Shown in pieces: positions 49,825 to 51,043 of a stretch of 64,000 nucleotides of DNA. The translations under genes were made by a program, and so were the position numbers. The first letter of the stretch is position 1. The number at the start of each line of letters is the position of its first letter. Where the stretch lies: the NCBI RefSeq assembly GCF_002741945.1, contig NZ_MDVN01000022.1, forward strand, positions 496,001 to 560,000. The letters are read 5' to 3'. This DNA is from Gaetbulibacter sp. 4G1 (lineage in GTDB: Bacteria > Bacteroidota > Bacteroidia > Flavobacteriales > Flavobacteriaceae). The notes under the pieces were generated by a model, which saw nothing but the letters and a program-made list of their open reading frames with translations, was not told the DNA's origin and ran no database searches.

Positions 49825-49877
49825 TATATTTTTAATTTTTAAAGTCCCGAATATACAGTCCTTATTTGAGCATTGCA

Positions 49878-49922
49878 AATTGTTAAAATTTTTATTGTAA
49901 TGCTGTTAACAATTGGTTAAAA
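49878..49922. repeat. Direct repeat A (45 bp), left end of the peptide island
   Basis: 45 bp starting AATTGTTAAAATTTTTATTG and ending AATTGGTTAAAA. It is identical in 44 of 45 positions to 50999-51043 (one C/A difference at 49910). It lies 54 bp before the moxR start. Confidence 0.9.
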
Positions 49923-49925
49923 AAT

Positions 49926-49955
49926 AAAGGGTAACATAAATTTATGTTACCCTTT
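49926..49955. terminator. Perfect 30-bp palindrome, minus-strand terminator-like
   Basis: Arms AAAGGGTAACATAAA (49926-49940) and TTTATGTTACCCTTT (49941-49955), no loop. On the minus strand TTTATTTTTTAACC follows, so it could stop transcription coming from the island toward moxR. Confidence 0.7.
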
Positions 49956-50107
49956 AAGAAATATTCATTTATAAAAAATTATTTCATAATTTAGGTTAGT
50001 AATTGTTTACTAATAATTTCCTTCTAATAAATCTACCCTATTACTTTGGTTATTGAGCTACTGCGAAAGATGTATTATTTCTTGAAAATCGATACAATAT
50101 AAACACA
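49956..50107. other. AT-rich gap inside the island, no gene seen
   Basis: About 150 bp between two perfect palindromes. Both strands were checked for ATG-started frames; only short ones end quickly. Together with the palindromes this makes up the moxR-proximal 270 bp without a gene. Confidence 0.6.
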
Positions 50108-50139
50108 AAACCAGTATAGAGAATTCTCTATACTGGTTT
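50108..50139 (-). terminator. Perfect 32-bp palindrome after the peptide gene
   Basis: Arms AAACCAGTATAGAGAA (50108-50123) and TTCTCTATACTGGTTT (50124-50139). On the minus strand it lies 6 bp after the peptide stop and is followed by TTTTGTGTTTATATT, typical of a Rho-independent terminator. Confidence 0.8.
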
Positions 50140-50145
50140 AAACAA

Positions 50146-50355
50146 CTAATTAAGTATACAAGTTCCAGATGTTCCTTGATTATCATCATATTTACAAATG
50201 CATTGTGACGAACATAAATTTGAGCTAGAACAACTATTTCCTTTGCAACTTGATCCGTAACCCCCTACATAACCTCCAAAGATAGTTCTTAATTGATTTC
50301 GTTGGAGCATATCATTAGCTTCAAGTTTTAGACTTTTTAAACTTAATTTTTTCAT
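50146..50355 (-). CDS. Double-glycine leader, Cys/Ser-rich peptide precursor (bacteriocin/RiPP-like)
   Basis: A 69-residue precursor from ATG 50355, with the leader MKKLSLKSLKLEANDMLQRN and then QLRTIFGG (GG at residues 27-28). The frame runs 16 codons further up, but the MKKLSLKSLK start is the usual form for Bacteroidota peptide leaders of this type. The core of about 41 residues reads YVGGYGSSCKGNSCSSSNLC and ends with a tail carrying three more cysteines: six Cys and many Ser in all. Such peptides are cut at GG by a C39-peptidase ABC exporter and may be crosslinked by disulfides or lanthionines. No transporter, peptidase or modification enzyme is in this window. It lies between 45-bp direct repeats, in an island with palindromes. 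Confidence 0.75.
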   Translation of the reverse strand: MKKLSLKSLKLEANDMLQRNQLRTIFGGYVGGYGSSCKGNSCSSSNLCSSQCICKYDDNQGTSGTCILN

Positions 50356-50444
50356 TTTAATAAGGTTTAAATAATTATTTTTGCCTTGAACAGTTAAAGA
50401 CACTCAAGGTTTGTGTCTGCCCTCCGCGAAAGGATATTGTTCTT

Positions 50445-50474
50445 GCCTAAAGCATATGCTTTAGGCTTTTTTGT
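50445..50474 (+). terminator. Plus-strand terminator without an upstream gene
   Basis: Perfect 22-bp palindrome GCCTAAAGCAT-ATGCTTTAGGC (50445-50466) followed by TTTTTTG. No plus-strand CDS lies upstream within the island, so it may end a small RNA running antisense to the peptide leader. Confidence 0.75.
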
Positions 50475-50998
50475 TTTTATTACAATATTTCTCTTAAATT
50501 TCTACATTAAACTCTCTAGGCCACTCATAGTCATTTATAAAAATGCCTGAAAATGAGCAATACTTTCTACGTTGTATTATTTTCACATTACCACTATCTG
50601 TTCTTTTTTGTTATTCTAATTCTCCATTCATCGGGTATTTAATAATTTCACCTTATACAATAGATAACATTCTATCTCTTTGTGATTATTTCAATTTATT
50701 ACCAATTTTCGATACTTTGAATAAATTTCACATTGAAACACTGGTCGTATATATTGATTTCGAAAACTTGAAGAGATAGAATGCTATCTATTGTATATTT
50801 TGAAGTCGACTCAATGCTTAGTGATAATAGTCGCCGTTGAGTTGTGAATAGACAATAATCCATTATAACAGGTTAAATATTATAATTAAACAATTATTTT
50901 CAATAAAAAGATTATTGAAAATAAAATGTCCTAACTAGATTTGTGAGAATCCAAATGTAGGAAATTTTCTGTACAAAAAACATAGTGCTTTCTAAATT
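50475..50998. other. Non-coding part of the island with inverted repeats
   Basis: About 520 bp. It holds a 26-bp inverted repeat with one mismatch (50655-50680 and 50771-50796, loop 90 nt) and a perfect 11-bp dyad (TTATTTTCAAT at 50894-50904 and ATTGAAAATAA at 50914-50924). A 78-codon frame at 50543-50779 crosses the first inverted repeat and shows no recognisable protein. I see no convincing gene. Confidence 0.6.
50655..50796. repeat. 26-bp inverted repeat with 90-nt loop
   Basis: Left arm 50655-50680 begins ATACAATAGATAACATTC; right arm 50771-50796 reads as its reverse complement with one mismatch. Pairing extends by one base outward (T50654 with A50797). Could be ends of a small mobile element or a long stem. 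Confidence 0.8.
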
Positions 50999-51043
50999 AA
51001 TTGTTAAAATTTTTATTGTAATGCTGTTAAAAATTGGTTAAAA
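50999..51043. repeat. Direct repeat B (45 bp), right end of the peptide island
   Basis: Matches 49878-49922 at 44 of 45 positions, same orientation, 1121 bp apart. It lies 65 bp before the aldo/keto reductase start. Confidence 0.9.

Follow-up and report, generated by a model that had tools for sequence, protein, structure and literature searches.

The divergent region between moxR and a reductase gene in Gaetbulibacter sp. 4G1 holds an island of about 1.1 kb between two 45-bp direct repeats, and the question is how such a DNA fragment entered a promoter region and what it encodes. The window analysed here, to which all positions refer, is the whole 64,000-nucleotide stretch from contig NZ_MDVN01000022.1. 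The following features were assigned, with the basis of each assignment in parentheses.

49844-49877, minus strand: moxR 5′UTR stretch of other-genus type, a putatively imported tract (differences to congeners and other genera).
49878-49922, minus strand: left 45-bp copy, upstream of moxR (repeat comparison, relatives, and genome scan).
49925-49956, minus strand: perfect 32-bp hairpin followed by TTTATTTTTT, terminator-like (sequence and other-genus counterparts).
50108-50139, minus strand: perfect 32-bp hairpin right after the peptide gene, terminator-like (sequence).
50146-50355, minus strand: intact gene for a cysteine-rich precursor peptide of 69 aa with a GG leader (ORF and leader homology).
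50375-50444, minus strand: structured RNA of about 70 nt (covariation and covariance model).
50434-50420 (P3), 50418-50413 with 50403-50398 (P2), and 50409-50404 with 50389-50384 (P1, pseudoknot), minus strand: helices of the RNA.
50449-50470, minus strand: perfect 22-bp palindrome directly 5′ of the RNA (comparable hairpins precede many other RNA copies).
50500-50640, minus strand: C39-VKOR-thioredoxin remnant, residues about 478-524 (piecewise alignment).
50648-50776, plus strand: inverted C39-VKOR-thioredoxin remnant, residues about 24-66 (piecewise alignment).
50774-50872, minus strand: C39-VKOR-thioredoxin remnant, residues about 1-33 (piecewise alignment).
50873-50998, minus strand: upstream region of the old operon, with a dyad (50894-50924) and a TACATTTG box (50952-50959) conserved in Flaviramulus operons (alignment).
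50999-51043, plus strand: right 45-bp copy, without a difference from the one copy in G003, the closest of three congeners (comparison with G003 and relatives).

The two repeats were identical at 44 of 45 positions in the same orientation, as the original prediction had stated, and a genome-wide scan allowing up to 3 mismatches detected no further copy in the 3.9-Mb genome (reversed-sequence control, 0 genome matches). Removal of the insert and one repeat from the window left 163 bp between the start codons of moxR and the reductase gene. In G003, with which the window clustered in a tree of the moxR operon, the two genes were directly divergent across a 164-bp spacer carrying a single 45-bp copy and no island. 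Comparison of the spacer in close relatives, which the prediction had proposed, thus yielded the empty site, in line with the suggested ancestral spacer of about 165 bp. The other two congeners (G001 and G002) carried one block each and no island. The predicted gain of the island therefore stands insofar as the site is empty in the closest relative; site-specific integration, named as its route, does not, because no recombinase was found and the block is conserved, normally once, upstream of moxR. As a separate observation, the reductase gene between moxR and an SDR gene was absent in G002, G001, and G019 (loci L043, L044, and L045), and the divergent moxR region is variable in this sense, since that gene is gone from two congeners and G019.

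One copy of the block was located just upstream of the moxR 5′UTR in nearly all moxR loci of the family inspected, with few mismatches in most, and 249 of 397 family genomes matched a query composed of the moxR 5′UTR and the block. The family-wide conserved block (window 49878-49922 and relatives) also carries the motifs TTTTAACAATT and TTTTAACCAATTNTTAACA. On its moxR side a TTG is followed about 20 bp on by TATATTCG, and its reductase side starts with GTTGCAG; the flavobacterial −7 consensus is TAnnTTTG (PMC9723704). From these readings the block appears to be situated between two putative divergent promoters, those of moxR and the reductase gene, and after the insertion both genes would retain one complete block next to their own promoter-like boxes. 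The suggestion that the insert alters the two promoters was not upheld, as damage was not evident; the case illustrates how duplication of a control block allows a divergent promoter to take up an insert, with neither gene evidently harmed.

On the minus strand, between the two genes, the island preserves the remains of a small operon for a secreted, bacteriocin-like peptide. In the direction of transcription it comprises a promoter region, a shattered C39-VKOR-thioredoxin pseudogene, a hairpin, the structured RNA, the intact peptide gene, and terminators, and it could be aligned piecewise, upstream region included, to an operon of the same genome (L039, C21:1002-1010 kb) and to Flaviramulus contigs L217 and L228. 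The TACATTT box and the dyad in 50873-50998 are common to the related operons. The long inverted repeat 50647-50680/50771-50804 consists of the same pseudogene codons present twice, head to head, and the alignment shows that the large C39-VKOR-thioredoxin gene was broken by deletion and inversion. The peptide gene noticed earlier was confirmed; the three palindromes and two more dyads described with it were present, one of them measuring 32 bp and not the 30 bp given. About 150 bp between the two terminator-like hairpins (49957-50107) had no identified relative. By itself, such a remnant of a bacteriocin-type operon is nothing unusual.

The island was likely acquired horizontally, as a GG-leader peptide (bacteriocin-type) operon, now decayed, with an RNA leader, and came with the donor's own 45-bp block. 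That the donor DNA brought its own copy of the block is probable because the left flank is a mosaic, the moxR 5′UTR being like that of other genera while the right copy equals that of G003. The 34 bp of moxR 5′UTR beside the left repeat differed at 7 positions from each of the three congeners and at 1 from G019 and G186, which belong to other genera; the outer flank of the right repeat was of the G003 type. In the simplest reading, a flavobacterial donor DNA would have carried the moxR 5′UTR, its own block, and the island; one exchange may have joined it within the AT-rich moxR 5′UTR, and the other may have joined the upstream region of the operon to the recipient's native block at a short homology, which would leave the operon flanked by two blocks. 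The short-homology joint is plausible because two Flaviramulus operons read TAAAAACTTTAACATTT and TTAAAACTTTAACATTT at the right junction, where the window block reads TAAAAATTTTAACAATT. Among the family genomes and related loci searched, none carried this operon next to moxR as a donor would, and the island had no match in plasmids or phages.

Recombination between direct repeats gives exactly the arrangement of G003, so the island might instead predate the split from G003 and have been lost there, leaving a single copy. The perfect hairpin just inside the left repeat, which has counterparts of the same position and form upstream of moxR in other genera, agrees with such an age, but we consider it unlikely, since G001 and G002 likewise have one block and no island, a covariance-model search found the RNA element in none of the three congeners, and the mosaic 5′UTR is specific to the window. 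There is little probability that a recombinase encoded elsewhere uses the 45 bp as its attachment site. Although the insert is flanked by direct repeats, of which the left has an inner dyad (AATTGTTAA/TTAACAATT), no recombinase ORF lies within the island, in most of the family the block precedes moxR with no insert, the right end of the island is simply the upstream region of an operon, and its left part resembles ordinary moxR-upstream sequence. Target duplication by a transposon or MITE, which the direct repeats and a 34-nt inverted repeat might recall, is hardly credible, because the island has no transposase, the inverted repeat is internal and consists of duplicated VKOR coding sequence instead of being terminal, and 45 bp exceeds the length of ordinary target duplications.

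The precursor encoded in the acquired operon consists of MKKLSLKSLKLEANDMLQRNQLRTIFGG, a double-glycine leader, and a short core of 41 aa with 6 Cys. The leader is homologous to those of other GG-leader genes; among about 20,000 short ORFs of related loci the core had no relative, and the leader alone matched. An MKK...GG leader is shared with TIGR04149 (rSAM-modified RiPP) and PCAT-exported class II bacteriocins, and a C39 exporter is encoded in related loci, but the window peptide scored 10.5 bits against TIGR04149, below the curated cut-off of 25, and belonged to no Pfam family. A PADLOC search gave no match. No PCAT exporter (C39 peptidase-ABC) is present near the peptide gene in the island. 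The L039 locus is a complete paralogous operon with C39-VKOR-thioredoxin, peptide, PCAT exporter, and HlyD genes, and the precursor of this exporter locus has a leader closely similar to that of the island peptide; this peptide might use the intact PCAT/HlyD exporter at C21:1006 kb in trans. A third locus with RNA and peptide (C21:174.6 kb) includes a VKOR-type gene of its own; no exporter is encoded in the 9 kb read there. By its sequence, the window peptide is an orphan GG-leader precursor of putative bacteriocin type. At the third locus (L040 4402-4587, G000) and at L050 (G020), in different genera, the peptides had a near-identical 39-residue core and clearly different leaders, which suggests either a strong constraint on the core or exchange of cores.

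The structured RNA ahead of the peptide gene has a much wider occurrence than the island. As shown by covariation, it folds into a hairpin (P3) plus an H-type pseudoknot in which P1 crosses P2, a fold first derived from 37 copies. The covariance model was built on P3 and P2 only, with P1 left out. In 143 distinct sequences, 19 of the 20 pairs were changed on both sides, and P1, outside the model, was 95.6% paired with 6 of 6 pairs covarying. None of 500 shuffled controls reached any of five measures, and pairing dropped to 27-58% in slid controls. Minimum-free-energy folding of the 70 nt alone was not significant (z −0.6), so that the support comes from covariation. A further helix closing the element (P0) was weak, at 67.6% paired, and is not claimed. 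The RNA is read on the strand of the peptide gene because cells of P1 and P2 held 82 G-U against 19 C-A combinations. A search of all 4227 Rfam families with the window region and seven other loci gave nothing credible, including no match to Flavo-1, likewise a conserved RNA motif widespread in Flavobacteriaceae (PMC9723704). The open-access literature searched yielded no account of an RNA of this kind, though this does not prove that none exists. We propose it as a candidate new family, with both crossing helices supported by the aligned copies.

With the covariance model, 49 of 397 sampled family genomes proved to carry the RNA, at about 150 copies in total and as many as 12 in one genome; in a phylum-wide sample, 9 of 395 genomes had it, 8 of which were also Flavobacteriaceae. 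When 84,980 species genomes were scanned with a pattern of the RNA, 67 stretches were found, almost all of them in Flavobacteriaceae (among others Tenacibaculum, Aquimarina, Dokdonia, Polaribacter, Winogradskyella, and Lutibacter), and the pattern had no match in viral contigs. A GG-leader ORF (33-120 aa, ATG) began 10-25 nt downstream of 122 of 141 copies, compared with 9 of 3000 random positions; in the window the RNA ends 28 nt before the start codon of the peptide gene. Both marks of a structured cis-regulatory RNA were thus found: its helices covary, and its placement and strand are constant with respect to one class of genes. Conversely, 96 of 151 leader-type genes in RNA loci had the element, which is not obligatory, since 55 of the 151 had no detected copy. 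In 65 loci of at least 7 kb, the neighbours included a C39-VKOR homologue in 33 and a PCAT in 25. The RNA is tightly tied to one gene class; it offers a way into the control of peptide weapons or signals in marine flavobacteria and can serve well as a marker for short GG-leader peptide genes, which often go unannotated.

In 35 of 120 cases the stop of the nearest upstream ORF coincided with the start of the element or fell among its first nucleotides. A canonical promoter (TAnnTTTG) preceded the RNA in only 4 of 143 copies and varied in position. As the element often begins at the stop codon of an upstream operon gene, it probably controls peptide expression post-transcriptionally or stabilises the peptide cistron, a role to which its frequent intergenic position within one transcript, near the peptide start, also points. 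Most likely the RNA adjusts how well the peptide message is translated or how stable it is, independently of the upstream operon genes, and it may do so by binding a ligand, binding a protein, or stabilising a processed 5′ end. More tentatively, the pseudoknot RNA might be a new class of cis-acting regulator dedicated to secreted GG-leader peptides, one that responds to a ligand, to a protein, or to ribosomes terminating at the stop codon upstream, setting the amount of peptide independently of the exporter genes of the same operon. The SAM-II and preQ1-II riboswitches are likewise compact H-type pseudoknots near a start codon, where translation control is plausible. This likeness is a lead only, as the present RNA, unlike them, has no Rfam match, often lies between operon genes, and occurs in a phylum not reliant on Shine-Dalgarno initiation, and its response to a ligand is only hypothetical.

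Some copies combine a TAnnTTTG-like antisense box with a hairpin able to terminate antisense transcription (co-occurrence, Fisher p = 0.0007), as would be expected if the conserved element were an antisense small RNA or a DNA control site and not the leader of a peptide mRNA. Many copies, however, lack both box and hairpin, covariation of the helices is that of an RNA, an upstream stop codon often marks the start of the element, and G-U exceeds C-A on the peptide strand; by this wobble test an antisense small RNA would rank second to a leader, and the alternative as a whole is rather improbable.

The leader RNA also separates these loci from the nearest described peptide systems. Bacteroidetocins, described from Bacteroidales, are short cysteine-containing peptides cut at a double glycine, and their loci encode an ABC transporter/peptidase, mostly a thiol oxidoreductase, and a multi-TM protein (PMC6671954). 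The island-type operon is alike in GG leader, ABC transporter/peptidase, and thiol oxidoreductase; in contrast to the present loci, no leader RNA is mentioned for bacteroidetocins (PMC6671954). The cores of the peptides found here are unrelated to theirs as far as tested, and the island peptide, an orphan with a broken oxidoreductase gene, is not established as a member. Among the other copies, one (L051 2989-3058, G047) preceded a 175-aa lipoprotein-like ORF and not a short GG-leader peptide gene, and at the loci L226, L231, L199, L239, and L203, several of them Tenacibaculum contigs, GG-leader genes formed long tandem arrays in which only some members were preceded by the RNA.
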